Shown here piece after piece: positions 27,151-46,511 of a stretch of 48,069 bases of DNA (the stretch's first letter is position 1; every line of letters begins with the position of its first letter). Under the pieces are notes generated by a model. That model worked only from the letters and a program-made list of their open reading frames with translations, did not search any database and was not told the DNA's origin. Source of the stretch: Fidelibacterota bacterium. Lineage in GTDB: Bacteria; Fidelibacterota; UBA8477; JABMPR01. The stretch is from positions 1 through 48,069 of the forward strand of contig JABMQQ010000195.1 of the NCBI GenBank assembly GCA_013202495.1, in the 5' to 3' direction. The translations under genes were made by a program, and so were the position numbers.

Positions 27151-27291
27151 CTCCCCTATGGGGTCAACCAGTCTTCGTCAAAAGGGGACTCCGCCCCAGC
27201 AGGCGATGGATAAACCAATCTGCGCCCCTTCGGGGTCTACCAGTCTTCGTCTTTATGGGACTTCGCCCTGGCAGGCGATTGGTAAATCTTT
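27151..27291. repeat. Two imperfect ~71-base tandem repeats at the 3' end of a secreted-protein gene
   Basis: 27151-27221 and 27222-27291 share GGGGTC-CCAGTCTTCGTC, a GGGAC-CGCCC stem and GGCGAT-GGTAAA. Each can fold as a hairpin. The second copy runs into the stop codon of the gene at 27290-29965. Short frames through it look coding but are repeat artefacts. Confidence 0.7.
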
Positions 27292-29965: not shown

Positions 29966-30076
29966 GAGATCCCCCTATATATGATTTAAATCAGGTTTGA
30001 GAAGTAGTAGGAGTAAATAGTGGTCGTGGTTCAATTTTGAGAGGCCCAAGATAAGATAATTGTTGTCTGCTGGCAA
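29966..30076 (-). promoter_or_regulatory. Conserved promoter and 5' leader (copy 1)
   Basis: Minus strand: -35 TTGCCA (30071-30076), 17-base spacer with AGACA, -10 TATCTT (30048-30053), then an ~80-base leader with TTTACTCC and CTGATTTAAATC before GGGGGATCTC and the ATG at 29965. The layout is shared with copies at 36.5, 39.0, 44.4 and 46.4 kb. Confidence 0.75.
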
Positions 30077-30205
30077 ATACTTCAATTAATCTGCAAGATA
30101 CATGGATATAGGTCGGAGCTGACTAACACACCCGGAAACAATCCTGTCATTTACCACAAGTACACCAGCAATCTGCACCCTAACAGAGAGACTGATTGAT
30201 AAATC

Positions 30206-31549
30206 TTATCTCAGGAAAACCATTTTAATAGTCTGGTTAAATGATCCAGTCTGTAATCGACAGAAATACACACCAGTACTCACTTGAATTCTGTTATGAT
30301 CCTTACCATTCCAATGGACCTCATATTTGCCTGGCGGCTTGTCTGATTCACTAAGAATGATGACTTCCTGACCCCGAATATCGAAAACTGTGAGTTTGAT
30401 TGAGGCAAGTTCAGGTAGTGTGTAGCTAAAGGCCGTGGTAGGGTTGAATGGGTTGGGGTAATTCTGATTTAGGGCATATTTATCTGGCAATACATCAAGA
30501 TCATTTACTGCACCAACCGTATATGGTGATTCATAGGCACCCATATCCGGGGCATTTCCATTGTATAAAGAATCTGGGATATTAACCATTGTATCGCCTT
30601 CCCAAATAAAAAGTGAAGCTGCCGCATCGATTCCGGGTGATCCCTGCTGAAGACAATAATCACCGTTATCTGGATCTACAAAAAGTGGGTCATCACTAAT
30701 ATTTCCCGAGCCATCCATTCCGTGATGAAAGTTAGTATATGACATTGAAATAATACTGCTATCGAGACTAACAATATCCTGTAATGAATCACTCCCCCAA
30801 ATAATTGAATTGATTACAGTCAGTACAGAGTTATTAAGCTGAATCCCATTCCCAACTTCGGAATTTATTTTACTCGCATCATTATCGATGGTTGTACAGT
30901 TAAGCATAATGATAGTTGACGAGTTTGACATCAAACCACCACCAGTTCCAGAATGATTATCAGCGATTAATACTGTGCTAAATGTAGGACTTGAATTTGA
31001 GCAATATATACCACCACCACTCCCATTGTGACCCCAACCCCCTGAAGTTAGGTTTGAAGAGATAATAGAGTCGTATACATAGGCATCAGAATTAATTAGG
31101 GCTATTCCCCCTCCGACACCAATTCCATCCCATGCTGCAGAATATCCAGAATGATTGTTAATGATCTTTAAATCTTTCAATACTGGTGATGAATTTTCGC
31201 ATAAAATACCACCGCCCATACTTTCAGCATTTCCACCACTTATCGTAAACCCCTTTAGTTCCGCAGTGTGGTTTTCACCATTCTCAAATATCACAACTGT
31301 ACCGTTCTCAAACACGCCTGCAGCGCTTTCAATTGTGCAACTGTCTGCACCATTTTCTGACATTACGATCACATTTTGGCCATTAAAATTAATGTTTTCA
31401 AAATACGTACCTGGTTGAACAAGTACAGTGTCCCCATCTATAGCACCGTTAATGCCACCCTGAATCGATGATGAATCGGTGGGCACATTAATTATTGTGG
31501 CAAAAAGTCCAGTGGTAATCCCAAGGATCAACAAGATTTTTCGTTTCAT
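30206..31549 (-). CDS. Right-handed parallel beta-helix (polymorphic-membrane-protein-like) secreted protein with sorting tag
   Basis: 447 residues. A signal peptide (MKRKILLILGITTGLFATI) is followed by a parallel beta-helix of pectate-lyase or Chlamydia Pmp type (VPTDSSSIQGGINGAIDGDTVLVQPGTYFENI; FTISGGNAESMGGGILCENSSPVLKDL; INNHSGYSAAW; GGIYCSNSSPTFS). It ends in the sorting tag (NYPNPFNPTTAF, GQEVIILSES, STGVYFCRLQ, TIKMVFLR). Proteins of this type in this phylum are often annotated as right-handed beta-helix proteins. Enzymatic activity is unproven. Its leader motif (31565-31602) matches the conserved leader, but the -35/-10 pair is not recognisable. Confidence 0.88.
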   Translation of the reverse strand: MKRKILLILGITTGLFATIINVPTDSSSIQGGINGAIDGDTVLVQPGTYFENINFNGQNVIVMSENGADSCTIESAAGVFENGTVVIFENGENHTAELKGFTISGGNAESMGGGILCENSSPVLKDLKIINNHSGYSAAWDGIGVGGGIALINSDAYVYDSIISSNLTSGGWGHNGSGGGIYCSNSSPTFSTVLIADNHSGTGGGLMSNSSTIIMLNCTTIDNDASKINSEVGNGIQLNNSVLTVINSIIWGSDSLQDIVSLDSSIISMSYTNFHHGMDGSGNISDDPLFVDPDNGDYCLQQGSPGIDAAASLFIWEGDTMVNIPDSLYNGNAPDMGAYESPYTVGAVNDLDVLPDKYALNQNYPNPFNPTTAFSYTLPELASIKLTVFDIRGQEVIILSESDKPPGKYEVHWNGKDHNRIQVSTGVYFCRLQTGSFNQTIKMVFLR

Positions 31550-31564
31550 GATACCCCCTTTTCT

Positions 31565-31602
31565 TTGATTTCAATCAGCCTCGATAATCAGGAGGAATAA
31601 TT
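31565..31602 (-). promoter_or_regulatory. Conserved leader motif without the matching promoter
   Basis: The minus strand reads AATTATTCC-TCCTGATTATCGAGG-CTGATTGAAATC, the core of the leader module, upstream of GGGGGTATC and the ATG at 31549. No TTGCYA/TAYMTT pair was found at the usual spacing, so transcription may start elsewhere. Confidence 0.55.
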
Positions 31603-31687
31603 GCTGGCTCAGTATGGGAAATAATATGAAGTGACTGGGTTCCCCATCTTGCGGGGGATCCAAAATTTTCAAAAGATTTGCATCAAA

Positions 31688-32290
31688 CTAAAAACGGTAA
31701 TCAAAAGAAAGGCTGGGTAAGATGAGGCTGTTCTTCCCTTCTTCATTTTCAAAAGTTCCAGCGATCAGTCCTGCTGATATGAACCCCTGACTAGCAATTC
31801 TCCACTGGTAGCTTAATGCGCTGCTTAGTGCTAAAGAGTTTCCTGTATACCCCAGGGTTCCGGACACATTCAACCCATTATTGTTATAATTGCTCTGCCT
31901 CGAATAACCCACGCCAATTAGATCCACACCCAGGCCGGCTGTGAGGAAAAATGACCCCTTCTCCCCCGTTCGGTAATCCTTTGTTATCCCGATGAGATTC
32001 AGGCTGCGCGGATTCCCCAGACCCAAATGAAGGGACCAAGTGTTATTAGATAAATCTGGGCGCTTCGCTACGAATTCCTCTGGCAAGGGCTCCTTTGTGA
32101 ATTTGTCAATCTCGTCTAATTGATAAACCAGAACATTTCGTCCTGATAGAATCTTGATATGCCTGTCAGGAGCATATTCTATTATCATTCCATGGATTAT
32201 CGAGCCATCCTTCAAATAAACCACATCCTCATATGTTTGTGAAAATACCAAGCCGCTTAAAAAAATAAATAGTATGATGACATGTTTCAT
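31688..32290 (-). CDS. Small outer-membrane-like protein, family not recognised
   Basis: About 200 residues from ATG at 32290 (MKHVIILFIFLSGLVFSQ, AAGGGAC upstream). A signal peptide is followed by TYEDVVYLKDGSIIHGMIIEY, a motif common at the N-terminus of FCB envelope proteins, then glycine-rich beta strands (LNLIGITKDYRTGEKGSFFLTAGLGVDLIGVGYSR) ending in FDYRF, as for a small barrel. The 267-residue protein at 22616-23419 starts in a comparable way. No promoter module seen. Confidence 0.7.
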   Translation of the reverse strand: MKHVIILFIFLSGLVFSQTYEDVVYLKDGSIIHGMIIEYAPDRHIKILSGRNVLVYQLDEIDKFTKEPLPEEFVAKRPDLSNNTWSLHLGLGNPRSLNLIGITKDYRTGEKGSFFLTAGLGVDLIGVGYSRQSNYNNNGLNVSGTLGYTGNSLALSSALSYQWRIASQGFISAGLIAGTFENEEGKNSLILPSLSFDYRF

Positions 32291-32486
32291 ATGAATAGTC
32301 CCTTGAATTAACTGAGACACAAGTTATCCCCACCCCCATCATCTGTCAAGATGAGACACCCCTCGCACTCATGCAGAAAGAGCGTTACGTAGTGAATTGA
32401 AGTGGAATCAAAGTTTTTGGTTTAAGATGATCTACCAGTTTGGGTAATATTGTTGTTGATACATTTACATTGTAATACATTGAAAT

Positions 32487-33455
32487 ATGAACAAATTTCT
32501 ACAAAAACATTATGGTTTCCAAGATATTGAGATAAAACAACTCGATGGCTATGATAATGCAAATTATCTAATCAAAACTGAATGTGGAAAATATATTTTT
32601 AAAACATACCCCAAAAGCACAGAATCTATTGCTCTGGTGAAGGCAGAGAACGAAACGCTTTTGTTTTTGCAGAGCAGAAGTAACAATCAGTTTCCCAAAC
32701 CGATTCCGTTTATAGATGGTTCGTTGATTAAAGTGCTCCAAATAGAGGGGCAAGAATCAACATGCCGAATGCTCTCTTTTCTTGAAGGGCAAAGTTTTGG
32801 AGATGTATTACACTCAAGAATCTTATTTCAATCTTTGGGGGTCTTTCTGGCCCAAATGAATTTGGAACTTCAGTCGTTTAGCAACTACACCATTGAGGCC
32901 AGACAATGGGAATGGGGCATTCAGTATTTAAATTTGAACAAAAAATATATAAAGGAAATTGATGATTCAAAAGACCGGAATATTATAATCTATTTCTTTC
33001 AGCAGTTTGAAGAAAATGTCTCCCCAGTACTTCACCAATTAAGAAAATCTATTATTCACAATGATGCCAACGAGTGGAATGTTTTGGTGAGCAATGGAGA
33101 AGTATCTGGGTTAATTGATTTCGGAGACCTCGCATACTCTCCGCTTATTACTGAATTGGCTGTAGCCATAGCCTATGCGTGCTTTGACAAGGAGAATCCT
33201 TTAGAATGGGCTTCTACTATTCTCAAATCATATCATCAGGTAATAGCAATTGAAGAAAATGAGATAACCGTTTTATACTATCTCATAGCAGCCAGGCTTT
33301 GCATAAGTGTATGTAATTCTGCTCATTCAAAAAAGAAAGATGCCGAAAATGTATATGCCTTTGGAAGCGAAAAACAAGCCTGGGGACTGCTCTATCGTTG
33401 GATAAGCATCAACCCGATAGAGGCTGAAACCTGTTTTCGCTCGGCAATCAGTTAA
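32487..33455 (+). CDS. APH-fold kinase, hydroxylysine-kinase/aminotransferase-linked type
   Basis: 322 residues of the aminoglycoside phosphotransferase fold: N-lobe DNANYLIKTECGKYIFK, catalytic HNDANEWN (H-x-D-x-x-x-x-N around residue 191) and metal-binding IDFGD. Overall layout, including the end (SINPIEAETCFRSAI), resembles the kinase part found fused to class III aminotransferases, and hydroxylysine kinases. Small amine or hydroxy-amino-acid phosphorylation is more likely than drug resistance. It is visibly more AT-rich than its neighbours and is the only plus-strand gene between tagged genes, suggesting transfer. No partner aminotransferase is adjacent. Confidence 0.82.
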   Translation: MNKFLQKHYGFQDIEIKQLDGYDNANYLIKTECGKYIFKTYPKSTESIALVKAENETLLFLQSRSNNQFPKPIPFIDGSLIKVLQIEGQESTCRMLSFLEGQSFGDVLHSRILFQSLGVFLAQMNLELQSFSNYTIEARQWEWGIQYLNLNKKYIKEIDDSKDRNIIIYFFQQFEENVSPVLHQLRKSIIHNDANEWNVLVSNGEVSGLIDFGDLAYSPLITELAVAIAYACFDKENPLEWASTILKSYHQVIAIEENEITVLYYLIAARLCISVCNSAHSKKKDAENVYAFGSEKQAWGLLYRWISINPIEAETCFRSAIS

Positions 33456-33582
33456 CCTGCTTTAAGTCGAGTAAGAATTGATATATAGTCAGTTGCGATA
33501 AGCACTCGGCCCCTTACCGTCATAGGTTCTAAGAGAAGGTCAATCAATCGGTATCCCGATTGAATCCCCGGTTTTGTATATC

Positions 33583-34242
33583 TTATCGCAAGTAAACCAT
33601 TTTAATAGTTTGTCTAAAATTCTGCGCCTTAATTCGGCAAAAATACACACCTGTACTCACAGGATTATCAGATTGATCCATACCGTTCCACTGAACTTCG
33701 TAGCTTCCGGGTGGTTTATCTGAATCACTTAGAATGGTGACTTCCTGACCCTTAATGTCTAGGACCGTCAGTTTTACAATAGATTGCTCTGGTAGCGTGT
33801 AGCTTATGATTGTGGTGGGGTTGAAGGGGTTGGGATAGTTTTGTTCTAAAGCATAGCTCATGATAGGTGAATTCTTGTCGAAGAGATTGACTGGTTCAGC
33901 CAAAATAGTAATAGGGCCGCTTACGCCAGCATAATTTGCACCAACGTTGTCCTGAATGATTTTTATGTAGGCCTCATCCGCCTCATCCTGGCTAACAACC
34001 CATAGATAGCTTTCCTGTGGGACGGGTATATCCTCGACGATAATGCTCCAGGTAGAACCACCATCGTCGGAATATTCAATATCCCAGTTATTGGGGTCAT
34101 GCTCTTGTCTGGGATGCCATTCAATGAGGACGGTATCGCCTATAAAGAATGTTTCACCACCAACAGGATAATCAAGATCTACATGAGCTATTGCCAGGCT
34201 TCCCATCAGGAAGGGCAGCAGAAAGGATATAGATTTAACCAT
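33583..34242 (-). CDS. Short secreted protein with sorting tag (Ser/Thr-protein-like N-terminal module)
   Basis: About 219 residues from ATG at 34242 (MVKSISFLLPFLMGSLAIA signal peptide). One beta-sandwich module (VDLDYPVGGETFFIGDTVLIEW; NWDIEYSDDGGSTWSIIVEDIP; YLWVVSQDEADEAYIKIIQDN) matches the short Ig-like domain repeated in many FCB surface proteins. It is followed at once by the sorting tag (NYPNPFNPTTII, GQEVTILSDS, STGVYFCRIK, TIKMVYLR). Minimal cargo: one domain plus tag. Confidence 0.85.
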   Translation of the reverse strand: MVKSISFLLPFLMGSLAIAHVDLDYPVGGETFFIGDTVLIEWHPRQEHDPNNWDIEYSDDGGSTWSIIVEDIPVPQESYLWVVSQDEADEAYIKIIQDNVGANYAGVSGPITILAEPVNLFDKNSPIMSYALEQNYPNPFNPTTIISYTLPEQSIVKLTVLDIKGQEVTILSDSDKPPGSYEVQWNGMDQSDNPVSTGVYFCRIKAQNFRQTIKMVYLR

Positions 34243-34443
34243 TATATTCTCCATTCTCCCCACAACGATTAACAGAATATATAGAAATATTGGTATTTTG
34301 ACATATTATAATTCAATTAATAATAAATAATTAGGCGGGTGATTGCCGGGATTGAGTCGGATCTTGTCCTCCTCTTACTCCATTTCGTTCAGTTTGGCGT
34401 TCGTTCCCTCCCTCTCACCTGCGAAAATGGAACCTGCCCAATC

Positions 34444-36444
34444 CTATTTCAAATAAACCATCTTAATCGTCTCGTTGTACTTCCCAGCCTGCAGCCGGGC
34501 AAAATACACTCCTGTACTCATTGGATTTCCTGACTGATCTAATCCGTTCAATTGCACTTCATATTTGCCTGGAGGTTTGTCGGATTGCTCAAGTGTTGTT
34601 ACCTCTTTACCACGAATATCGAAAACTGTCAGGTTAACTGTTGTTTGCTCTGGAAGATCATAGCTGATGGTTGTTATTGGGTTGAAAGGGTTAGGATAAT
34701 TCTGCTCTAAAGTAAGATCCCATGCTATATGAGCTTCAGTGCTAACGCCCACCAGCATCAGTGAGTAATACTCCTTCTCTCCGACGTAGGAAATATCAGC
34801 CAGACGATAGTCATAGACTTCACCGGGTTTGACAGCTCCATCTGTAAAGGAGTAGCTTGACTGACGGATGGTACTGCCTTGACCGGCAAGTTCCGGATGT
34901 GTAATGTAACTGGCGATCTCTACCCATGCTTCGTTCTGGGTGCAGCGCTCTAAAATGAATCCCAGGTTGTCGGTCTCACTTTCGGTGATCCATTGGAGAA
35001 GGATCTGGCTGTGATCAATACTGTAGCTGAAAGCAGCTAATTTTACCGGAAGGGAGAAGTCACTATCGTTGTTCTCATTCTGAACGATGATGGGTGTCGA
35101 TCGATTGGTGTTAGTATTATCCCCGAGATTGGCAGACGCGTTCGAGCCCCAGGCATAAAGTTTATTATCATTAGCTAAAGCGAGGCAGAAGTCGGCTCCC
35201 AGCGCAATAGCCTGGATCAGGTTTCCGGTATCATCACCAAGATAGGTAGTCCCATCGTAAGCACCTTTCAGTACGATAATAGGTGTCCAGCGATCTGTTG
35301 CAGTGGCATCACCAAGATTATAATAACCATTCTGACCCCAGGTGTAAACTTGTCCGTCTTCAGTAAGGCTCGCAGAAAAATATAATCCAAGTCGAATAGA
35401 GGTGATCTTATTGCTGGCACCATCCCCCAGGTAGGTGGTCCCAAAGTAGGCACCTTTAAGAACATGGACAGGAGTCGTACTTGTCGAAGTGGAGTTATTT
35501 CCAAGCTGACCGACGCTGTTCGCACCCCATGTATAAACAGTACCATCTGTCGCCAGGGCAGCCGAATGACCGGAACCAGCAGCCACCGCGATCATTTTAT
35601 TCCCTGAGTCATCCCCCAGATTTGATGTACCTGAATATTCACCATCCTGGACAAATACGGGTAAATAACTGTTGCTTGTATTGCCATCGCCAAGGGCACC
35701 TGATAAACCATAACCCCAAGCAAACACAGTACCATCAGCCGCCAGGGCGAGTGAATGCCCCTCTCCACAGGCAAGTCCAATGATCTTATTTCCACTGTTA
35801 TCACCCAGGTAGGTGGTCCCGCTGTAGGCACCCTTTACAACTTGTATGGGCGTATGTCGAGCAGTTGTGGTCCCATCACCCAAACGGCCATTGAGATTAC
35901 CACCCCAGGAATACACTCTCCCGTCTTCGGCGACGGCCATTGACATATATCTTCCGGCAGCAATTGCGATGATCTTGTTATTCGTATCATCGCCGAGATA
36001 GGTTGCCCCGGAATATGCACCTTTCAGCACTTTGACCGGTGTAGTCCTTTGGGTCGTTGTCCCGTCCCCCAACTTGCCGTCCACATTATGACCCCAGGCG
36101 AAGACTGTTCCATCCGCAGCCAGGGCAAGGGAGTGCCGTCGACCACCTGCTACGGCAATGATCTTATTATTCCCATTATCACCCAGGTAGGTTGTCCCCG
36201 AGTATTCACCCTTCAACACTTCGTTGGGCAAGGCAGGATTGGGCGGGTCTTCGTCACCGAGCTGCCCGTTGCTGTTACTCCCCCAAGTCCATACAATCCC
36301 ATCAGCATGCAGGACGATGGAATGATAAGCGGTAGTCATGGCACCGAGTTCCTGCGCGGTCACAGTTTGTTGTGGGAAACAAAAGAATATGATCGCGAAT
36401 CCTGAAAACAATAGGTCCCAAAGTTGAAACCCGCTCTGTTTCAT
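34444..36444 (-). CDS. RCC1-type seven-bladed propeller protein with sorting tag
   Basis: 666 residues. A signal peptide (FAIIFFCFPQQTVTAQ) is followed by seven RCC1-like repeats (about 40-460; VYSWGGNLNGRLGDGTTTARHTP pattern, with an insertion KGAYSGTTYLGD-NNKII after each blade). A FnIII-like carrier (about 462-570; LLQWITESETDNLGFILER, YDYRLADISY) precedes the sorting tag (NYPNPFNPITTI, GKEVTTLEQS, STGVYFARLQ, TIKMVYLK). Seven repeats close a propeller. Ligand unknown. The carrier and tag match those of the gene at 37068-38930. A conserved promoter and leader lie at 36445-36558. Confidence 0.92.
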   Translation of the reverse strand: MKQSGFQLWDLLFSGFAIIFFCFPQQTVTAQELGAMTTAYHSIVLHADGIVWTWGSNSNGQLGDEDPPNPALPNEVLKGEYSGTTYLGDNGNNKIIAVAGGRRHSLALAADGTVFAWGHNVDGKLGDGTTTQRTTPVKVLKGAYSGATYLGDDTNNKIIAIAAGRYMSMAVAEDGRVYSWGGNLNGRLGDGTTTARHTPIQVVKGAYSGTTYLGDNSGNKIIGLACGEGHSLALAADGTVFAWGYGLSGALGDGNTSNSYLPVFVQDGEYSGTSNLGDDSGNKMIAVAAGSGHSAALATDGTVYTWGANSVGQLGNNSTSTSTTPVHVLKGAYFGTTYLGDGASNKITSIRLGLYFSASLTEDGQVYTWGQNGYYNLGDATATDRWTPIIVLKGAYDGTTYLGDDTGNLIQAIALGADFCLALANDNKLYAWGSNASANLGDNTNTNRSTPIIVQNENNDSDFSLPVKLAAFSYSIDHSQILLQWITESETDNLGFILERCTQNEAWVEIASYITHPELAGQGSTIRQSSYSFTDGAVKPGEVYDYRLADISYVGEKEYYSLMLVGVSTEAHIAWDLTLEQNYPNPFNPITTISYDLPEQTTVNLTVFDIRGKEVTTLEQSDKPPGKYEVQLNGLDQSGNPMSTGVYFARLQAGKYNETIKMVYLK

Positions 36445-36558
36445 GATACCTCCTAACAGAAAAGATTTTGTTCAAATCTCAGATTCAGAAGGAATAAATG
36501 CGACCTGTGGATCAATGTAGTGTGCCTTAAATGTAATGCACTATTTGTCTTTTGGCAA
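36445..36558 (-). promoter_or_regulatory. Conserved promoter and 5' leader (copy 2)
   Basis: -35 TTGCCA (36553-36558), 17-base spacer with AGACA, -10 TACATT (36530-36535). The leader has ATTTATTCC-TTCTGAATCTGAG, then GGAGGTATC before the ATG at 36444. Confidence 0.75.
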
Positions 36559-36711
36559 ATGATCATGGATTTGATACGGCGAGGGGCAAGAGCAACTGAT
36601 ATTGAATCAATTGACGGATTAGCTCAAACAGTTATCTCTTAGCATTTACAGGGTAGTGAAGAAATAGGTATCCCGCCGGCATCCCCGATTGTGTATCCAA
36701 TCCTACAAAGA
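36559..36711. other. Intergenic, one copy of a short CCCGCCGGTATC-type repeat
   Basis: No gene. GTATCCCGCCGGCATCCCCGATTG (around 36668-36692) recurs in diverged form near 37017-37045, after the GYD gene start, and near 33551-33575, after the kinase gene. It is a small intergenic repeat at gene ends. Confidence 0.45.
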
Positions 36712-36990
36712 TTATGAGAACAAAATGTCAAAATCCCCTACAGAAACAGCCTGAGATGTAATAAACCCTATCCCGGTTTCCTTGCTCAATTTGATAGATG
36801 TTTTCATGGCTGCCTCGGGAGATGGCATATCCATAATGATCATTAAATCTGGCTCTCCCAGTAGTGCATACATTGCTATAACCTTGCCGCCAAGCTCTTC
36901 GATAATCTCAACAGCCTTTTCGGTACGGGTTGAGCTGATATCGTCCATTGCCTCTGCTGAATAGGTTCCAAACATGATGAAAGTTGACAT
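36712..36990 (-). CDS. GYD-domain protein
   Basis: 92 residues matching the whole GYD family (FIMFGTYSAEAMDDISSTRTEKAVEIIEELGGKVIAMYALLGEPDLMIIMDMPSPEAA). Typically small ferredoxin-like cytoplasmic proteins of unknown role, sometimes ligand-binding. It sits between two secreted propeller genes, with no obvious operon partner. Confidence 0.88.
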   Translation of the reverse strand: MSTFIMFGTYSAEAMDDISSTRTEKAVEIIEELGGKVIAMYALLGEPDLMIIMDMPSPEAAMKTSIKLSKETGIGFITSQAVSVGDFDILFS

Positions 36991-37067
36991 TGTATATCTC
37001 CTTTAGTTATGGGTTTATCCCGCCGGTATCTCCGATTTTGTAGAACTAACCTACCGGAAGACCTTCC

Positions 37068-38930
37068 TTATCGCAAATACACCATCTTAATAATTTGACT
37101 ATATGATCCAGCGTTTAATCGACAAAAATACACTCCTGTGTTCACAGCGTTACCATCATCACTGATTCCCGCCCATACAAATTCGTGCCAACCGACTGGC
37201 TGTGATGGCCAATAAAAGCGGGAGATGAATGCACCACGGACATCATAGATGATCAGTTCAAGAGCTGACTCTTCTGGAATACCATAACGGATGGTGGTCA
37301 CTGGATTAAAGGGATTCGGGTAATTTTGTTGGAGGATGTATTCAGTTGGCAGCTCCACAGCGGAGCTTGTGACCAGCACTGTTAGTGTATGGTATTCCAT
37401 TTCCCCGGTATAACTGACATCGGCCAGACGATACTCATAGGCTAGACCTGCTTTAATGGATTCATCAGCATAGCTATACTCAGTTCTGGCTGTAGAGTTG
37501 CCTTGACCTGCCAGAGACTTATCTGTCAAATAGCTGGCGATCTCTATCCAGCCTTCAACAGGTCCTGGGACTGAGGTTGTTGTCCGGCGTTCCAGTATGA
37601 AGCCCAGATTTTCGATCTCACTCTCGGTGATCCAACTTAATAGGACTTCACCGTTTCGATCCACGCTGGCCGTAAATGATGAAAGTTCCACGGGCAAAGA
37701 GAAATCGGCACTGGATGAATAAATATAAGCCGATCCTGCTGAGGAGCCATTGTCATCATCCTGATACGCAGCAACAATTATATCATCACCTGATATTGCA
37801 ACAGAGTTACCGAAATAATCATCACCCTGACCATCGGATGCGGTAGTTTTAGCTTTTTCTGTCCAGGTTACACCACTTCGCAGATAGGAATATGCGGCAC
37901 CCGCACCGGAGGCTTGTTCATCTTCATAGTACGCCCCTATAAGAGCGTAATCTTCGGATATTGATACCGAAACTCCGAAAAAATCACTTGCTTGAGCGTC
38001 AGATGCAGAAATTATTGTTTGCTGAGTCCAGTCAGCCACGCTTCTAATAAAAATATAGGCTGCACCTGCGTTGCCGCCGAACTCGTCTTCGTAGTATGCA
38101 CCTACAATGGCGTAATCACCCGATATTGCTACGGAGTGTCCGAAATAATCACCTGATGATGCGTTGGAGGCAGAAATTTTTTCCTGCTGTCCCCACAGGT
38201 TGGCTCCGTCCTGATTACGAAAAAATAGGTAAGCAGCCCCTGAGGTACTGCCGCCGGTGTCTTCACCTTCCGCACCCACAATGGCGTAATCCCCCGATAT
38301 TGCTACAGACCTGCCAAAATAATCTGTAGACTGCTTATCGGAGGCCTGAAGTTTTTTCTGCTCCGTCCAACTTGTACCACTTCTGACAAAGACATAGGCT
38401 GCACCCTCACTACTGCCAGTCGCCTGTGATAAATCTGCACCCACAATGGCGTAATCACCTGAAATGGAAACTGCACATCCGAAGTGATCAGAATTACTCG
38501 TGTCTGAAGCAGCTATTTGTTGTTGCATTGTCCAATCAGCACCATTCCTGATAAATATATAGGCTGCACCCGCATTGGTTATGCCTCCGGGATCATCGTA
38601 ACGGGCACCAACGATGGCGTAATCACCAGATATAGATACCGAATATCCGAAATGATCTGTAGCAGTTGTGTCGGATGCTTTTAACATTGCCTGTTGACCC
38701 CAGTTATCAGCCCCACCCTGGTCACGATAATAAATGTAAGCTGCGCCAGCATCGTTACCACCGGTGTCTTCGTAAAATGCTCCAACAATGGCATAGTCAC
38801 CTGAAATGGATACCGAATATCCAAACCAATCAGAAGCGCCCCCGTTGAGAGCGGTTACTTTCATCTCTGATCCCCATATTAAGCTTATGCTCACGATCAT
38901 CGATGTAGAAACTAATAGTATTTTTCTCAT
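37068..38930 (-). CDS. FG-GAP (integrin-alpha-like) seven-bladed propeller protein with sorting tag
   Basis: 620 residues. A signal peptide (MRKILLVSTSMIVSISLIWG) is followed by seven FG-GAP repeats (pattern FGxSVSISGDYAIVGAxYED, about 20-400), a FnIII-like carrier (about 405-525; LLSWITESEIENLGFILERR) and the sorting tag (NYPNPFNPVTTI, LIIYDVRGAFISRF, NTGVYFCRL, IIKMVYLR). The repeats are close in sequence, suggesting recent expansion. The carrier is shared with the RCC1 gene. Promoter and leader lie at 38931-39044. Confidence 0.92.
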   Translation of the reverse strand: MRKILLVSTSMIVSISLIWGSEMKVTALNGGASDWFGYSVSISGDYAIVGAFYEDTGGNDAGAAYIYYRDQGGADNWGQQAMLKASDTTATDHFGYSVSISGDYAIVGARYDDPGGITNAGAAYIFIRNGADWTMQQQIAASDTSNSDHFGCAVSISGDYAIVGADLSQATGSSEGAAYVFVRSGTSWTEQKKLQASDKQSTDYFGRSVAISGDYAIVGAEGEDTGGSTSGAAYLFFRNQDGANLWGQQEKISASNASSGDYFGHSVAISGDYAIVGAYYEDEFGGNAGAAYIFIRSVADWTQQTIISASDAQASDFFGVSVSISEDYALIGAYYEDEQASGAGAAYSYLRSGVTWTEKAKTTASDGQGDDYFGNSVAISGDDIIVAAYQDDDNGSSAGSAYIYSSSADFSLPVELSSFTASVDRNGEVLLSWITESEIENLGFILERRTTTSVPGPVEGWIEIASYLTDKSLAGQGNSTARTEYSYADESIKAGLAYEYRLADVSYTGEMEYHTLTVLVTSSAVELPTEYILQQNYPNPFNPVTTIRYGIPEESALELIIYDVRGAFISRFYWPSQPVGWHEFVWAGISDDGNAVNTGVYFCRLNAGSYSQIIKMVYLR

Positions 38931-39044
38931 GATTTTCCCCTCTATCTAAGACTTCAATCAGCTTTAAGATTCAGTGGGAATGAAAACAGGTTGTTTTCGA
39001 GTAAGGAGTGTTGAAAATATAATGCAGATATTGTCTATTAGCAA
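38931..39044 (-). promoter_or_regulatory. Conserved promoter and 5' leader (copy 3)
   Basis: -35 TTGCTA (39039-39044), 17-base spacer with AGACA, -10 TATATT (39016-39021). The leader has TTCATTCC-CACTGAATCTTA, then AGGGGAAAATC before the ATG at 38930. Confidence 0.75.
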
Positions 39045-39122
39045 CTATTGGTGAAAAATCGCAGGTGTGCAAGAACGGCAGATTAGATGTATAAAGTGGG
39101 TTCCCCAGAAAGGTGGAAGGGG

Positions 39123-39231
39123 TCTAATCAAGCCTGCCCATCCTAAGCCTACGGAGTGGTATTTCTGTCGATACTATGGCATAGATTGGTAGGTATTTAT
39201 CGGTAATAATGGCAGCTTCTTAGTAAAACAA
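39123..39231. repeat. Dispersed intergenic repeat, copy 1 (most diverged)
   Basis: TCTAATCAAGCCTGCCC...GAGTGGTATTTCTGTC...ACTATGGCATAG...GGTATTTATCGGTAATAATGGCAG...AAAACAA, the leftmost of six copies between 39.1 and 48.1 kb. Confidence 0.6.
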
Positions 39232-39263
39232 AAGAACTCACCATCTTCGTGATGGGCTCTTTT
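39229..39263 (-). terminator. Terminator of the outer-membrane-like gene
   Basis: Minus strand: AAAAGAG-CCCATC, loop ACGAA, GATGG-GAGTTCTTTTGTTTT forms an imperfect stem followed by T's, ~90 bases after the stop at 39351. Confidence 0.65.
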
Positions 39264-39350
39264 AATTTTATCCTTGTGAAATGGTATACCACTGGTCAAT
39301 CAATCACCCCATTCATGCATAGTTTAAACTACTGGGGTCCTTGAACTGAA

Positions 39351-41207: not shown

Positions 41208-41580
41208 TAGTTTCCCTCCAATGTGAATTAAACTGTAAGCAGAATAAATCGTTCCCCTTAAATATTTTAAGATATCATTTCTACCAAAATCCAATATGAG
41301 CCTTGTAAATGAGCGTATCTGTCTTAGCCCTTCAACAAAACCGCAGTACCTTCATGCTATCCTAATGGGGACAAATCACATGCCACCATATATGGATTAC
41401 GAACCGGGGGTTACTAAAAGTGAGAGCCTATATCGTTTTCGGGGGTCAAAAGTAGTTAAAATATGTGTGTTTGTTGCTTCGTACATGATCCGAGCTCAGA
41501 AATGTTTCAGAAACCTGAAACAACATTCAGATACCTGATACAAAATGGGACTGATCTCGAGGGTTGAGTAGGATTTCATC
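41208..41580. other. Intergenic with a short hairpin
   Basis: No convincing gene; the ORF on the plus strand at 41296 lacks family similarity and a ribosome site. GTTTCAG (41504-41510) and CTGAAAC (41515-41521) form a tight hairpin followed by another CTGATAC at 41534-41540. Confidence 0.35.
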
Positions 41581-41582
41581 CT

Positions 41583-41723
41583 TCACTTGCTTCCGTCTGT
41601 ATGGCAGGTTTTTTCAGGCTTCGGCTCGTTTCTCTCAATTAAGGTAGAACGTCCCATTATACGGGTCTCCGTTTCGAGCCTCTGGCCCACACTATTTCCG
41701 TGGCAGGCGTGTTGTGAGACCAT
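41583..41723 (-). CDS. Hypothetical 46-residue peptide downstream of the radical SAM gene
   Basis: A minus-strand ORF starting 43 bases after the radical SAM stop, ATG at 41723 to TGA at 41583-41585. The product has two Cys (HACHGN and KTCHTD), a charged middle (RLETETRIMGRSTLIERNE) and no hydrophobic run. Radical SAM enzymes often act on neighbouring small peptides, so a modification substrate is conceivable. The ribosome site is poor and no conservation can be checked, so it may be chance. Confidence 0.25.
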   Translation of the reverse strand: MVSQHACHGNSVGQRLETETRIMGRSTLIERNEPKPEKTCHTDGSK

Positions 41724-41766
41724 GTCCATATCTTTGAATCGTTGTGAGAATCAGATTGCTTGTGAA

Positions 41767-42678
41767 TCATTCTTTTGCATCAAGCCCGTAGACCTGCCTC
41801 GGAGCGAGATACATGGGAAATCTGTCAATAAGTTCCCGACGAGTAAGATAGCAGAAGTGGCATTCATCAATATATTCTTCCTCATGATCCACTTCATATT
41901 GCCTCGCTAAAGCCGCAGGTCCCCCCATAGTAAGTGGAGCGCATATTGGGTGCTCACCAGCTTTATATTCGTCAATCAGTTCAGAAAGAGGTCTTTGCCA
42001 AATATTACCCATGCTGATGCCTTGGCATAGGTGGATATGACCGTGTGAATCAAGATGCACCCTGGAAGGAGATTGCAGGTCTTCATGAGGACATTGTATT
42101 AGTTTATCCCAGGGTTTTTGAGGTAATCCCTCTGTTAATTTGTCAACTGCTCTTCCTTTGAACATCGCACCCCCTCCTACTACAGGGGCTCCCTTTTCCA
42201 GTCCTTGACCGGGCAATGCTTCGACAAAAGGCTTCTGGATGCAAATCGGAGAACTCGGTATACCAAGTTTGTGTGCTACAGTCAACGCTCGTTTGGCGAA
42301 ATTATCTGTTCGTCCTCGGTTATGAAATATATCGTCGCTAATGCTGAGGAAATCCAATCCAAGTTCTTGAAGAGGCCTTAGTTTAAGTTCTGCGACTTTC
42401 TGGGATGTTGCCCAATATGCGTTGGTCACAATCCCGACCTGAAATCCCATGTTCCGAGCGAGTTTTACTCCCTCAAACAATAAAGGATAAAAAAGAAATG
42501 GTTCACCTCCTTCGAAGTATATCCATTTCACACTACCAATCTTTTGTGATTCTTCAAGGACATTACGTATCTGTTGTATCGTTATGGTACCATCTGCTTC
42601 TGGATTTGAGTAAAGGAAACAATGATCACACTCGTAAGTACATTTGTAGGTCAGGAAAATGTGGATTTCTGTTAACAT
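41767..42678 (-). CDS. Radical SAM protein with C-terminal Cys-rich region
   Basis: 303 residues. The SAM/4Fe-4S motif C-T-Y-E-C-D-H-C lies near residue 15 (C-x3-C-x2-C), with GGEP at about 55 and a TIM-barrel core. The C-terminal part has Cys clusters (IQCPHEDLQSPSRVHLDSHGHIHLCQG, and DECHFCYLTRREL) suggesting an auxiliary cluster of SPASM or related type. The substrate is unknown. Its start has GAGATG upstream. The small ORF after it may or may not be a partner. It stands alone on the minus strand. Confidence 0.85.
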   Translation of the reverse strand: MLTEIHIFLTYKCTYECDHCFLYSNPEADGTITIQQIRNVLEESQKIGSVKWIYFEGGEPFLFYPLLFEGVKLARNMGFQVGIVTNAYWATSQKVAELKLRPLQELGLDFLSISDDIFHNRGRTDNFAKRALTVAHKLGIPSSPICIQKPFVEALPGQGLEKGAPVVGGGAMFKGRAVDKLTEGLPQKPWDKLIQCPHEDLQSPSRVHLDSHGHIHLCQGISMGNIWQRPLSELIDEYKAGEHPICAPLTMGGPAALARQYEVDHEEEYIDECHFCYLTRRELIDRFPMYLAPRQVYGLDAKE

Positions 42679-42802
42679 GTCTACATCTCATTCTTTTTAG
42701 CTTACCAAGCGTCCACTAAACCGAGGGAAATTCTATGATTCAATATATGAATATGGGAGATCATCTCCAAATTAGTGATAGTCAATTGTGGGTGAGATAG
42801 GG

Positions 42803-43026
42803 TTTAACTAAGCCTGCCTGCCAGGGCGAAGCTCAACGAGCGTAGACTGGCCCAAACGTAGCCTGCCTGTCCCGTCATAGCTCGAAGGAGCGAAGACGGA
42901 CGGAATGGTATTCCTGTCATATTATGTCATACTATGGCATAGTTGGCAGGTATTTATGGGTAATATTGGCAGAGTCTATATAAAACAAGAAAGCCCCTAA
43001 CTCGTTATGAGTCAGAGGCCTATCTA
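42803..43026. repeat. Dispersed intergenic repeat, copy 2, with decayed tRNA-terminator copy
   Basis: It starts TTTAACTAAGCCTGCCTG, continues through the GGTATTCCTGTCATATT core and ends TTGGCAGAGTC...AAAACAAGAAAGCC followed by a TAACTCGTTATGAGTCAGAGG terminator copy with two mismatches in the stem (42991-43021). It has two nested GC-rich palindromic inserts near 42820-42910. It matches the flank of tRNA-Pro at 47871-48026. Confidence 0.75.
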
Positions 43027-43063
43027 ATGCTTGTTACGTCGTAGTTCTTTGAACGAAGACGAA

Positions 43064-43079
43064 TCGAGGTGAAAGGATT
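43064..43079. other. Remnant of a tRNA 3' end, possible old attachment site
   Basis: TCGAGGTGAAAGGATT matches the last 16 bases of tRNA-Pro on the plus strand (48028-48043) at 15 of 16 positions. It is followed by degenerate tRNA-like sequence. Confidence 0.5.
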
Positions 43080-43125
43080 GACTTCGACTCCCCTTCGACA
43101 AGATCAGGGTCGCTCGTCTTACTAC

Positions 43126-43144
43126 GCTTGTACACTGTACAAGC
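43126..43144. repeat. Perfect 19-base odd palindrome
   Basis: GCTTGTACA-C-TGTACAAGC, fully symmetric around a central C, in non-coding DNA after the tRNA-like remnant. Could be an operator, a recombination core or a replication remnant. Confidence 0.55.
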
Positions 43145-43357
43145 TCCGTTTCGAACCGAGGTTCTCATCCTTACTTGGTGTAATCACTAGATCGCGGAAC
43201 TATCTATCTTTTCTGATACTCGCTTATTTGATGGGGGTAAATGCCATCCAAGCATCAGGGGATTAAGACAATATATTGGTTAGTGTATTCGTATTCTCCA
43301 TATACTTCAACAGTGCGCAGAGTATACTGCAATTACTTCTGTTAAAGAGTGAGGTTT

Positions 43358-43573
43358 TTATTGACCACCTTCATATTTGAATGAAACTTTGACTTTTGCG
43401 CGAAAAGCTTCAATCTTTCCGTCTTTGAGCTGCAAATCAAGCGTGGAAACCTCAGCTATTCTGAGATCACGAATTGATTCAGCCGCTCTACTAACTGCAG
43501 CTGAGGCTGCTTTTTCCCATGATTCACTGCTCGTACCTACAAGCTCAATCACTTTGTAAACGCTCTCTGCCAT
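43358..43573 (-). CDS. Dodecin
   Basis: 71 residues from ATG at 43573 (AGGAGGTGGCAAAA upstream; the earlier in-frame start is unsupported). The full dodecin fold is present: MAESVYKVIELVGTSSESWEKA, then AAESIRDLRIAEV and VKVSFKYEGG. Dodecins form 12-mers storing flavins or coenzyme A. No flavin genes adjoin. Confidence 0.93.
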   Translation of the reverse strand: MAESVYKVIELVGTSSESWEKAASAAVSRAAESIRDLRIAEVSTLDLQLKDGKIEAFRAKVKVSFKYEGGQ

Positions 43574-43685
43574 TTTTGCCACCTCCTGTAAGATGTAATT
43601 ACTCAACACTATCTGTGTATATTAAGATCATAGTTATTAGAATTCCACGAAATTAGCAGTGGCAAATACATTGGATAATCAAATC

Positions 43686-43745
43686 CTATTTCAAATAAAC
43701 CATTTTGATTGTCTTGCTGTAATCCCCTGAGTCTTTGCGAGTCAA
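43686..43745 (-). pseudogene. Remnant C-terminus of a sorting-tag gene
   Basis: The minus strand translates as DMPTMPLTRKDSGDYSKTIKMVYLK then stop; the last 12 residues are the end of the type IX tag. The 22 bases 43683-43704 are identical to the 3' end of the RCC1-type gene at 34441-34462. No upstream tag or protein remains, so this is a truncated, decayed copy. Confidence 0.7.
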
Positions 43746-43774
43746 GGGCATGGTGGGCATATCACTGACTTACA

Positions 43775-44335
43775 TTAAGTGTTTAATTTCCTGAGCTTAA
43801 CTGCTGTGCCATATGCCAGAAGTTCCGCAGCACTGGCTATGACACTATTGGTCATATAGCGGACGTTGATAATCGCATCAGCCCCTATCGCTTCAGCTTG
43901 ACTGATCATCCTATCAGTCGCTACCTCACGAGCCTGGCCCATCATCTCTGTGTATTCAGTCAACTCACCGCCGAGAATTAGCCTCATGAGAGCTGAGAGG
44001 TCCTTTCCAAGCCAAATGGCATATATCGTATGTCCCTTGACTAAACCTAAAACCTCAGTGACCTCATGGCCAGGGGTTTCAATGGAACTCTGTAGCCGTA
44101 TGCGCTGCAGAGATTCAACTGGGGGGAGTTTCTCACCCAGACTTATGCCTTTTCGCTGGTTGATGCCCACCACAATCAGAACCAGTAGGATACCTCCCAT
44201 AAGGCAGTAGATCGCATCCTTTAGCCACCAAGGTAGTGTGGGTTCATGGTACACGTACCAGGGTATCCCAACAAAGATCACCGTGAATAGCCCGAGCACA
44301 AAAGCAAGCGAACCAATGTGTCGAAGTATTTTCAT
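43775..44335 (-). CDS. YbjQ-family (UPF0145) protein with N-terminal membrane anchor
   Basis: 186 residues. Two membrane helices (about 10-28 and 37-58) are followed by a YbjQ domain (about 88-186; VLGLVKGHTIYAIWLGKDL, ATDRMISQAEAIGADAIINVRY, ELLAYGTAVKL). YbjQ pentamers are proposed metal-binding proteins; typical members lack the anchor, so this is a membrane-tethered variant. GAGGAGGAATC before the ATG. It carries the conserved promoter/leader (44336-44454), unexpected for a non-secreted protein. Confidence 0.88.
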   Translation of the reverse strand: MKILRHIGSLAFVLGLFTVIFVGIPWYVYHEPTLPWWLKDAIYCLMGGILLVLIVVGINQRKGISLGEKLPPVESLQRIRLQSSIETPGHEVTEVLGLVKGHTIYAIWLGKDLSALMRLILGGELTEYTEMMGQAREVATDRMISQAEAIGADAIINVRYMTNSVIASAAELLAYGTAVKLRKLNT

Positions 44336-44454
44336 GATTCCTCCTCTAAATAAGCAATTGATTTCAATCAGTCCTGAGAATCAGATGGAATAAATACTAT
44401 TCGTATTTCAGTTTTGAAGTTTAACAAGATAGTGTAATGGCTGTCTATTGGCAA
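44336..44454 (-). promoter_or_regulatory. Conserved promoter and 5' leader (copy 4)
   Basis: -35 TTGCCA (44449-44454), spacer ATAGACAGCCATTACAC (17), -10 TATCTT (44426-44431). The leader has TTTATTCC-ATCTGATTCTCAGG-ACTGATTGAAATC, then GAGGAGGAATC before the ATG. Confidence 0.8.
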
Positions 44455-44483
44455 CTAATCTAAACCCAGATCGAAGATGGTAA

Positions 44484-44663
44484 TAATCAAGCCTGCCTGT
44501 CGCAGCGGAGTAAAACGGAGACGGGCCAAACGTAGCCTGCCTGCCTTGTCGTAGCTCCAGCGGGCGGAGCGTAGACAGGCGGAATGGTATTTCTGTCATA
44601 CTATGGCGTAGTTGGTGGGTATTTAGAGGTAAATATGGCAGAGTCTATATAAAACAAGAATAC
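44484..44663. repeat. Dispersed intergenic repeat, copy 3, with nested GC-rich palindrome
   Basis: AATCAAGCCTGCC...GGTATTTCTGTCATACTATGGCGTAG...GGTATTTAGAGGTAAATATGGCAGAGTC...AAAACAAGAA. A nested ~35-base insert after CAAACGTAGCCTGCCT carries CTTGTCGTAGCTCCAGCGGG and can fold on itself. Frames here are artefacts. Confidence 0.7.
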
Positions 44664-44709
44664 AGCCACACCATATTTTCGCCTATCAGAGCCCAAACAT
44701 TAATTACGC

Positions 44710-44910
44710 TCACACACCAGAAACTGCTGCTAAGGCAAGAATTAACACAAAAAAGCCAAGAACAATAACTACCAAAAACTGTAATAAACGTTTGCCAATT
44801 TCTTTCGACACAGATTTATTCGGACGCTTTTCGTCTTTTTTGAATGGCCGAAATAAACCGCCCAATAATTCAACAAAACCAAGGAATAATTCAACAATGA
44901 ACATCTGCAA
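44710..44910 (-). CDS. Small single-pass membrane protein
   Basis: 66 residues. N-terminal hydrophobic face (MQMFIVELFLGFVELLGGLF), basic middle (RPFKKDEKRPNKSVSKEIGKRL) and a C-terminal membrane helix (LQFLVVIVLGFFVLILALAAV). No family recognised. The ribosome site is weak (TTTTGCAG), so moderate confidence only; it lies in the repeat-rich accessory region next to an integrase remnant. Confidence 0.5.
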   Translation of the reverse strand: MQMFIVELFLGFVELLGGLFRPFKKDEKRPNKSVSKEIGKRLLQFLVVIVLGFFVLILALAAVSGV

Positions 44911-44967
44911 AAGTAAACTGTCAGAATCGTTTCACTACGTCTAACTCACCCACTTTATAAGATCATC

Positions 44968-45129
44968 TCACTTTATCCAATTTGCATGAATCTCTGCTGT
45001 TCGGATAGAGCGGTGACCTAAGAATGTTTGAAGCACCTCTTTTGGCATTCCTTTCGCCAACATGTTATAGACATAAGTATGTCTGAAGGTATGTAGGCTT
45101 ATTCTGTTCTGTCGTACCCGGGTGCGTCT
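44968..45129 (-). pseudogene. Decayed C-terminus of a tyrosine recombinase (integrase)
   Basis: The minus strand reads ...SLHTFRHTYVYNMLAKGM then PKEVLQTFLGHRSIRTAEIHANWIK and stop. This is the last ~50 residues of the phage integrase family: H-T-F-R-H, LGH, and the position of the nucleophilic Tyr. That Tyr is His here (EIHAN), a one-base TAT-to-CAT change that would inactivate it. The N-terminal ~250 residues are absent; sequence upstream runs into an intergenic repeat (from 45124). Confidence 0.85.
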
Positions 45130-45197
45130 AATCAAGCCTGCCCAAACGTAGCCTGCGGGATGGTATTTCTGTCATATTGTGTCATAGTTGGCGGGAA
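45124..45197. repeat. Dispersed intergenic repeat, copy 4, abutting the integrase remnant
   Basis: GCGTCTAATCAAGCCTGCCC...GGTATTTCTGTCATATTGTGTCATAGTTGGCGGG. Truncated at its right side. It breaks the integrase reading frame, so it inserted or recombined there. Confidence 0.75.
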
Positions 45198-45215
45198 GAA
45201 TGATTAATGGCTTAA

Positions 45216-46364
45216 TTACTTCTCAATAGATTCCCACGCTTCTACGATTTTATTGGGGATGGGATATTTGAGGAATTTCTTACTGTCTTCAAGAGCATCT
45301 GCTTTTTCTTGGACTTGTTTATAGGCAGCTTCAAGGTAGGATTTGTCCTCTAAAAGCTCAAAGATGCGGAAATTTAAGTTGAACTCAATATTTTTAGTTT
45401 TTCCAATGAGTATTTGTAGTTCTCTTGAGTCAAATACTTCTCCTGTTTTTTTGTATGAGAGGAAGAGATAGGTATTGGCTACAAGTAACAACTCATTGTT
45501 CTCTGTTTCAGAGTCTTTTTGAATTGCGATAGCTTTTTCTAAATGTTTAATAGATTTATCAAAATTACCGTGATTGTAGTACGCTTCTCCGATGGTACTA
45601 TGTGCACGGCCAAACCTTTCTGCGTCCCCAAATTCCTTTGTTGATGAAAGACTCACCGCATCAGCGGTTTCAATATCATCCATACTGGCGACTCTTATCT
45701 TGCCTGCCCTTGATAGATCAGCTGTAATTCCATCCGCATAAAAAGCATCATCTTCCTTTCCTTTATTTTTGAGAGGAAGAACAACAACTGATGGAACTTC
45801 ATCGTCAGGGTGTGGCTCTACTTTGTGTTCCTCATATTCTTTGGGGTCAGGATGATTGAGGTTCTCCGCTTTGAGAGCAAAGACATCAATTAATCTTCCA
45901 ACCCCTTTCAACTGTTGCAAACCCAGCGGAATCCCATCAATCTTTTTCTTGTTAAGAAGTTCTTCAAAGACTGACTTGGATACACAGACCCCGCCCACTG
46001 GAGCCATGCTCTTCAACCTGGCAGCTACATTTACGCCATCTCCGAACACATCCTCCTCATCAAAGACAATATCTCCTACATGGACACCTATCCTCAGATT
46101 CATATCATCATCGTCATAGGTGGCTTGTTGGAGCTTTACAGCACAGGTTGCAGCATCTATGGCTGAGGGGAAGTAGGAAAGGGTGCCATCCCCTATTTCT
46201 TTGACGAATGTACCATTACAATCACTAATTAGTGGTCTAAGAATGGATCTCTTTTTTCTGAGAGTCTTTAGCGCAGATTCTTCATCTGCTGACATTGCTT
46301 TTGTATAGCCAGCAATATCTGTGAACATGATAGCAGCAAGTTTGCGTAATGGAGTTGTCGTCAT
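45216..46364 (-). CDS. Class III adenylate/guanylate cyclase with TPR-like C-terminus
   Basis: 382 residues. The cyclase domain (about 1-175) has complete catalytic residues: metal Asp16 (FTDIAGYT) and Asp59 (EIGDG), K55, transition-state N112 and R116 (FGDGVNVAARL). The shape is of the FCB/Chloroflexi 'AAIMFTDIAGYT' type. A second module starts as VVVLPLKN, DAFYADGITADL, the FlgO-like segment often seen after such cyclases, but is cut short before KIRVASMDD. It is followed by TPR-like helices (about 255-300; SKEFGDAERFGRAHSTIGEAYYNHGNFDKSIKHLEKA). An internal deletion in the FlgO-like part is likely. Promoter and leader at 46365-46483. Confidence 0.88.
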   Translation of the reverse strand: MTTTPLRKLAAIMFTDIAGYTKAMSADEESALKTLRKKRSILRPLISDCNGTFVKEIGDGTLSYFPSAIDAATCAVKLQQATYDDDDMNLRIGVHVGDIVFDEEDVFGDGVNVAARLKSMAPVGGVCVSKSVFEELLNKKKIDGIPLGLQQLKGVGRLIDVFALKAENLNHPDPKEYEEHKVEPHPDDEVPSVVVLPLKNKGKEDDAFYADGITADLSRAGKIRVASMDDIETADAVSLSSTKEFGDAERFGRAHSTIGEAYYNHGNFDKSIKHLEKAIAIQKDSETENNELLLVANTYLFLSYKKTGEVFDSRELQILIGKTKNIEFNLNFRIFELLEDKSYLEAAYKQVQEKADALEDSKKFLKYPIPNKIVEAWESIEK

Positions 46365-46483
46365 GATTTCCCCTTTGCTGAAAATTTAATTTTAAGCAGC
46401 CCTGAGAATCAGTGGGAATAAATACTACTTGAGATATAGTATTGAAGTGTTTGCAAGATAGTGTAATGGCTGTCTATTAGCAA
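46365..46483 (-). promoter_or_regulatory. Conserved promoter and 5' leader (copy 5)
   Basis: -35 TTGCTA (46478-46483), spacer ATAGACAGCCATTACAC (17), -10 TATCTT (46455-46460); leader TTTATTCC-CACTGATTCTCAGG-GCTG before GGGGAAATC and the ATG at 46364. Nearly identical to copy 4 in the promoter. Confidence 0.8.
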
Positions 46484-46511
46484 CTAATCTAAAACCAGAT
46501 TGAAGATGGTA

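Follow-up and report, generated by a model that had tools for sequence, protein, structure and literature searches.

Promoters of the primary sigma factor of Bacteroidota, sigma-ABfr, carry TTTG at -33 and TAnnTTTG at -7 (PMC7366714). In Porphyromonas gingivalis, control by the PorXY-SigP pathway is reported, with SigP and PorX described for component genes of the type IX secretion system (T9SS) such as porT (PMC8265659). Here we analyse a stretch of 48,069 nucleotides from a Fidelibacterota bacterium (the window), in which a common promoter and 5′ leader, together called the module, precede genes of different function. The module bears on how bacteria outside the cultured Bacteroidota choose which type IX cargo to make. 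With a probability of about 0.53, we read the module as a cis-regulatory unit which selection has kept in one genus before a subset of exported-protein genes, and which would join a promoter to a linear, early-transcribed element read by a trans-acting factor. The window is contig C190 of a 3.95 Mb genome assembly (255 contigs, 86% complete); C plus number designates a contig of this genome (G000), L plus number a module locus and G plus number a genome of the set.

All five full copies in the window lie on the minus strand and match the promoter TTGCYA-nn-AGACA-N10-TAnnTT exactly in a pattern search, at the five genes for which the initial annotation had noted it. In the broad sense this is a sigma70-type promoter, with TTGCYA-N17-TAnnTT upstream of the gene in 5/5 copies. 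The promoter is followed by a leader of 80-90 bases comprising a TTTATTCC-like box, two CTGATT-like blocks and a G-rich ribosome site. The near-constant distance from -10 box to start codon is reproduced from the coordinates: 83-91 positions separate the last base of the one from the first base of the other. The module itself covers ~100 bp; it begins ~5 bases before the -35 box and extends ~66 bases beyond the -10 box. The gene read-out likewise agrees with what had been noted, namely three proteins with export-like N-termini and a T9SS sorting tag, a YbjQ protein and a cyclase behind the full copies. A sixth gene is preceded by the leader core alone. The features are listed below; copies in the window are named by the first base of their gene.

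46455..46483, minus strand: promoter TTGCTA-AT-AGACA-N10-TATCTT of the cyclase gene (pattern match)
46365..46454, minus strand: leader of the cyclase gene, with exact CTGATTCTCAGG at 46401-46412 and ribosome site AAAGGGG; start codon at 46364
45216..46364, minus strand: protein with class III adenylate/guanylate cyclase domain and TPR, 382 residues, without sorting tag
44426..44454, minus strand: promoter TTGCCA-AT-AGACA-N10-TATCTT of the ybjQ-like gene (pattern match)
44336..44425, minus strand: leader of the ybjQ-like gene, with exact CTGATTCTCAGG at 44373-44384 and CTGATTGAAATC at 44360-44371
43775..44335, minus strand: protein with YbjQ_1 domain and hydrophobic N-terminus, 186 residues, without sorting tag
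39016..39044, minus strand: promoter TTGCTA-AT-AGACA-N10-TATATT (pattern match)
38931..39015, minus strand: leader of the FG-GAP repeat gene
37068..38930, minus strand: FG-GAP repeat protein, export-like N-terminus, 620 residues, T9SS type A tag
36588..36614, minus strand: upstream element with inverted repeat CAATTGAT..ATCA(A/G)TTG (CAATTGAT..ATCAATTG), shared with the copy on C50
36530..36558, minus strand: promoter TTGCCA-AA-AGACA-N10-TACATT (pattern match)
36445..36529, minus strand: leader of the RCC1-repeat gene
34444..36444, minus strand: RCC1-repeat protein, export-like N-terminus, 666 residues, T9SS type A tag
31550..31633, minus strand: leader-only copy (model positions 51-137 including the start codon), without recognisable promoter
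30206..31549, minus strand: protein behind the leader-only copy, export-like N-terminus, 447 residues, T9SS type A tag
30048..30076, minus strand: promoter TTGCCA-GC-AGACA-N10-TATCTT (pattern match)
29966..30047, minus strand: leader, its first CTGAT block divergent (CTACTTCTCAA)
27290..29965, minus strand: protein with export-like N-terminus, 891 residues, T9SS type A tag

At the promoter position of the leader-only copy (window 31590-31680), between the upstream gene and the leader, stands GGATCCCCCGCAAGATGGGGAACC, a possible hairpin.

As a unit, the module occurs more often in the genome than chance would allow. Its leader blocks taken singly are not above chance in the window at ≤3 mismatches, with 57 occurrences of CTGATTCTCAGG for 49.8 expected and 79 of CTGATTGAAATC for 75.7 expected; exact CTGATTCTCAGG is found in the two listed copies only. 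Searched across the 3.95 Mb with ≤2 mismatches allowed, the promoter pattern of 29 bases is found 28 times, namely 11 times exactly, 3 times with one mismatch and 14 times with two. Since the reversed pattern also gives 18 at ≤2 mismatches in total, not split by mismatch number, the two-mismatch class is at chance level, and the leader is absent behind all 14 of its members, including window 9659-9687. The leader continues after 12/14 matches at ≤1 mismatch, among them C150, which is cut by the contig end; of the other two, C81 lacks the leader and C4 ends at the contig end. A spacer shortened by one base gives no genome match at ≤1 mismatch (control 1). A genome-wide motif search had been proposed for the module, and a sequence-only model (R1) built from the 11 full copies of the genome finds copies beyond the window: it returns 23 matches at E≤10, with the 11 full copies all at E≤1.4e-20. 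Partial matches comprise C150, the leader-only copy at 31549 (2.8e-7), the promoter-only C81 (1.7e-6), a leader-only copy at C253:2610 (1.2e-4), a partial copy on C52 (6.9e-4) and C4 (0.002), and we treat the six weaker ones as chance. On C81 (L175, 3664-3727), the promoter and the bases directly after it are intact and unrelated sequence stands in place of the leader; it holds an inverted repeat (GGACTATAAG...CTTATAGTCC) and is perhaps an insertion.

Conservation was assessed on the first 60 by score of 80 aligned matches, which the removal of those ≥80% identical reduced to 53 copies. Near-invariant columns comprise TTGC, the CA of AGACA, TA--TT, C53, C65 and G71 and, further on, TTCC, CTGA, TCTC, GCTGA, GGGG and ATG, with free columns in between. 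In alignments of the copies, the mean column identity is 62-69%. In the 35/53 copies where both parts score well, the core starts 26 bases (22 copies) or 27 bases (11 copies) after the -10 box in 33/35, and 24 and 25 bases after it in the other two. From the core end to the ribosome site the distance is 0-17 bases in 33/35 copies, with outliers of 56 and 59, and conservation weakens ahead of the ribosome site. The core keeps its place relative to the promoter and not relative to the start codon or the ribosome site. To our knowledge, a leader conserved as linear sequence and locked to the promoter rather than to the ribosome site is unusual among 5′ untranslated region elements.

The flanks of the 14 promoter matches in the genome show an in-register identity of 0.25-0.28 from -200 to -41 relative to -35, which rises to 0.31 and 0.38 in the last two windows before -35 and to 0.73 at -35; this comparison is ungapped, and shared elements at shifted positions escape it. 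Likeness over more than one near-promoter window, to a degree suggestive of duplication, is confined to the pairs 44335/46364 and 36444/C50; in single windows, values of 0.6-0.7 also occur for a few other pairs. A single segmental duplication, which would have undone the initial annotation, is thereby ruled out in register as the origin of the copies, with flanks unrelated apart from the two pairs. We conclude that the copies have most probably diverged and been held by selection, with two recent duplications in addition.

At the thresholds used, the module is restricted to the genus of the window. A scan of 245 genomes of the phylum, with stricter filters that lose weak matches, finds 17 positive genomes at E≤1e-4, all of this genus (17/19), and 0/226 outside it. 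A more sensitive search of 40 genomes gives matches at E≤1 in 18/19 genus members and 14/21 others, the best outside match (G037) having E=5e-4 and the next 0.012. With a model built from 63 matches (R2), 67 matches at E≤1e-5 are found across 18/19 genomes of the genus, most of these matches having helped to build the model; G011 (72% complete) has no module match at E≤0.01. The recurrence before genes of different function, first noted in the window, is thus borne out elsewhere in the genome and across the genus. The G037 match (L158, G037:C9:68885-68999), the sole outside-genus one below E=0.01, precedes a tagged frame of 230 residues; it could have arisen by chance or be distantly related to the module. 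In G015, G017 and G018, a variant leader (CACGATATCCACATTCGATCTCG...TCTCACCGCT...TGGAATCCAA) stands behind the same promoter (L138, L149, L150, L151, L154), perhaps as a lineage-specific version. A phage origin was rejected on 0 exact matches of the 28-position consensus core pattern in viral contigs, a weak result as no window copy matches this pattern exactly either.

Which genes carry the module was surveyed in the first 62 of the 80 matches, counting only complete products of ≥150 residues directly behind it; the remaining 27 of the 62 rows ran into a contig end, were short or broken, or yielded no readable open reading frame. A T9SS sorting domain is found by motif in 27/33 complete products, and with two further tagged ones behind longer leaders (C97, L169, and its orthologue L124) the count is 29/35. 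In the window, the TIGR04183 score is above cut-off in the four tagged genes. The six untagged products are the window cyclase, the window YbjQ protein, L119, L120, L138 and L143, the last four having hydrophobic, export-like N-termini by eye; a numerical N-terminus measure does not discriminate, as all 33 pass, cyclase included. The folds of the targets are unrelated (RCC1, FG-GAP, DUF3160 and others). SprA, the T9SS translocon, is matched in 11/11 genus members searched, 10 of them over cut-off. With 150 of 180 candidates scored, the tag matches in the 3.95 Mb genome number at least 150; set against an estimated gene number, genes with a tag form a small minority. Judged by its targets, the module marks a subset of predicted exported, mostly T9SS-tagged proteins.

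Class III cyclase genes recur behind the module in this genome, with the full module in the window, the leader only on C253 and a partial copy on C52. On C253 (L167, 383-2652), the leader core directly follows the stop codon of a tagged gene and is in turn followed by a cyclase-TPR protein of 741 residues. The C253 and window cyclases are 74% identical over 246 residues; the 382-residue window protein aligns to both ends of the longer one, without much of its middle TPR part. The third module-linked cyclase lies on C52 (L173, 1084-2632), where the partial module precedes a MASE10-guanylate/adenylate cyclase. As for the YbjQ protein, the two nearest among 22 named records with a YbjQ relative come from Candidatus Neomarinimicrobiota (78 and 75% identical).

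Beyond the -35 box, the copies fall into groups by sequence. The first upstream element, U1, is AAATGTTCCATCTGTGCAAGGATATGTTCCATCTGTGTTAGTCA, a tandem ATGTTCCATCTGTG repeat with a period of 21 bases. It is placed 73-76 bases before the match start in 11/14 copies and at 38, 117 and 144 in the others. Its 39 matches, 14 of which built the model, lie in 9/19 genomes (for example L172:4100-4174, L167:290-364 and L112-L116). U1 also stands alone: among 17 further places, three rows of which are misplaced, several lie before genes with export-like N-termini and without the module. An apparent open reading frame in U1 was rejected, being interrupted by stops in several copies (by reading). The 27-base inverted-repeat stretch listed above occurs in the genome, at ≤3 mismatches, only before the 36444 and C50 copies. 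A different repeated stretch (TATGACACAATATGACAGAAATACCGTTCCGCAGGCT...GGGCAGGCTTGATTATTACC) lies upstream of several copies (window ~44455-44500 and 46484-46530; L128; L151) and also upstream of the gene starting at 47773, without the module; it may be an interspersed repeat. Sequence comparison suggests that one common promoter-leader is combined with different upstream elements.

From the presence, fixed register, genus restriction and target kind of the module we infer common regulation, for which the following sequence of events can be proposed. RNA polymerase with a primary-type sigma factor would start a few bases after TAnnTT. A dedicated trans-acting factor would read GCTAATAGACA over the -35 box and spacer (the AGACA region), and the same factor would read the linear block ATCCACAAGCTGTATTTATTCCTTCTGATTCTCAGAGCTGATTGAAATC, which falls within the ~65 bases that follow the -10 box. 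Through this recognition the module promoters would respond together, and the different upstream elements would add further inputs. As the block keeps its distance to the promoter and not to the ribosome site, it would act during promoter escape or early elongation, or else on the 5′ end of the mRNA, instead of at the start codon. The protein-bound leader and the regulon suggested at first stay candidates.

Several observations weigh against this cis-regulatory reading. Only 8/11 full copies in the genome are seen before a tagged gene, against the at least 150 tag matches, for which reason the module is not a general control of T9SS cargo. Leader-only copies persist before intact genes (31549, and C253 behind the stop codon of the tagged gene), and L146 and L152 have a decayed or lost promoter (by reading); such copies agree no less with a role at the RNA level, or with decay, and suggest that part of the module, at least, may act as RNA. 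At shifted positions, part of the stretch upstream of 38930 recurs at 44335/46364, and the upstream region of 29965 holds a U1 remnant. Repeats in the core, which could be tandem protein sites, are weak by column shuffles: for windows of 8, 10, 12 and 14, the observed score is reached in 59, 17, 6 and 31 of 200 shuffles for direct repeats and in 69, 8, 86 and 71 of 200 for inverted repeats. Lastly, the analysis names no regulator for the module.

The rival which survives best, and which we hold possible if rather unlikely, places the whole effect in the RNA. The leader would be an unstructured, sequence-specific element of the 5′ untranslated region, bound by an RNA-binding protein or one small RNA and setting stability or translation of the mRNAs for exported proteins, and the distance to the promoter would merely keep it near the 5′ end. 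The leader-only copies speak for it, in particular the one directly after a stop codon, which is possibly co-transcribed with the tagged gene; so do the linear core without consensus fold and the fading of conservation ahead of the ribosome site. However, the core is locked to the -10 box, and an RNA-only element does not explain the strong extra conservation in the promoter spacer.

A bolder form of the cis-regulatory reading, which strikes us as doubtful, would make the ~100-bp block a single platform of promoter and initial transcribed region. Its factor would engage the spacer, stay with RNA polymerase for ~65 bases or pass to the nascent RNA, and license T9SS cargo, the platform being plugged in behind interchangeable upstream elements. 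If this were true, the genus would build its surface proteome from mix-and-match regulatory cassettes.

Promoter capture by recombination appears improbable. Here the module and the tag would be the conserved ends of shuffled 'promoter-leader / cargo / tag' cassettes; the sharing would mainly result from duplication and gene conversion, with no common regulation behind it. The longer upstream flanks of the two duplicated pairs are what such a process would leave, and the module lies directly behind the tag end of the upstream gene in C150, L125 and L136 (by reading); partial copies and upstream sub-families common to copies point the same way. Against this stand the column identity of 62-69% with sharply conserved columns beside free ones, the otherwise unrelated in-register flanks and the presence of the module on some untagged genes. 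The upstream regions of five orthologues, too, agree at 85% over their full extent, and stretches of U1, promoter and core show no variation among them; this contrast is modest.

We consider it very improbable that the leader is an elongation loading site for a specialised NusG paralogue, in the manner of ops and RfaH. In its favour, genes with exported products share here a linear element, conserved and transcribed early, whose CTGA-TTC-TCAG might fold into a small hairpin on the non-template strand. The only NusG-family match of this genome reaches just 67.6 bits, where 10 of the other 11 members with a match reach 84-92; this weak match could be a paralogue, in which case the assembly would lack the main nusG. 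On the other side, the module-rich G009, G012 and G018 have one strong-type NusG-family match each, which weakens the proposal. Genus members have 0 or 1 such match (12 with one, 7 with none); a nusG gene is expected in every genome, and the search therefore misses some. The atypical own match and the 7/19 members showing none leave the proposal a small probability.

The initial annotation had also suggested a structured leader and asked for structure covariance, and the fold tests do not support it. No consensus pair emerges from RNAalifold on 48, 51 or 45 sequences, in a test without contrast as 0.0 is also the result for its 100 column shuffles; for the first 11 copies, five weak pairs at -0.33 kcal/mol are returned, with no compensatory change. 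Folded singly against dinucleotide shuffles, 42 leaders have a mean z of +0.35, and 1/42 lies below -2 (46364, z -2.13). A search of window 27000-48069 against Rfam returns nothing at gathering scores, and five loci give only three matches, all far sub-threshold. A stop triplet stands at columns 98-100 in 41/54 leaders and an in-frame start ahead of it in 5/54 only. An upstream open reading frame, with the core readable as GTA TTT ATT CCT TCT GAT TCT CAG AGC TGA, was rejected, as 49/54 lack a complete start-to-stop frame; the core has many third-position-like changes, yet its codon-phase conservation is not clearly periodic (by reading of the column profile). A structured RNA switch or thermometer, or a leader peptide, has the frequent stop triplet and the fold of leader 46364 in its favour and can be all but dismissed on the rest.

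In the open-licence literature searched (Marinimicrobia/Neomarinimicrobiota, T9SS regulation, shared leaders), no description of the module was found. As a sharply defined, genus-wide module with dozens of copies it offers a handle for finding its regulator. Like the sigma-ABfr promoters, the module has TTG and TAnnTT, with 20 bases between TTTG and TA; the TTG letters of TTTG at ~-33 are present in 47-48/49 copies and its first T in 24/49. Unlike them, it lacks the final bases of the -7 box, TA and TT being near-invariant and the next bases (columns 43-44) not TG, and it adds GCTAATAGACA and the conserved stretch of ~65 bases after the -10 box. With RfaH and ops, it shares a short linear element in the early transcribed region; it differs in that, where read, a copy stands before a single cargo gene instead of a long operon, and in that no genus member has a second NusG-family match in a search that misses some. 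Lastly, as in the PorXY-SigP pathway, genes linked to type IX secretion would be under regulation, the reported targets being component genes in P. gingivalis and cargo genes with a shared leader here.

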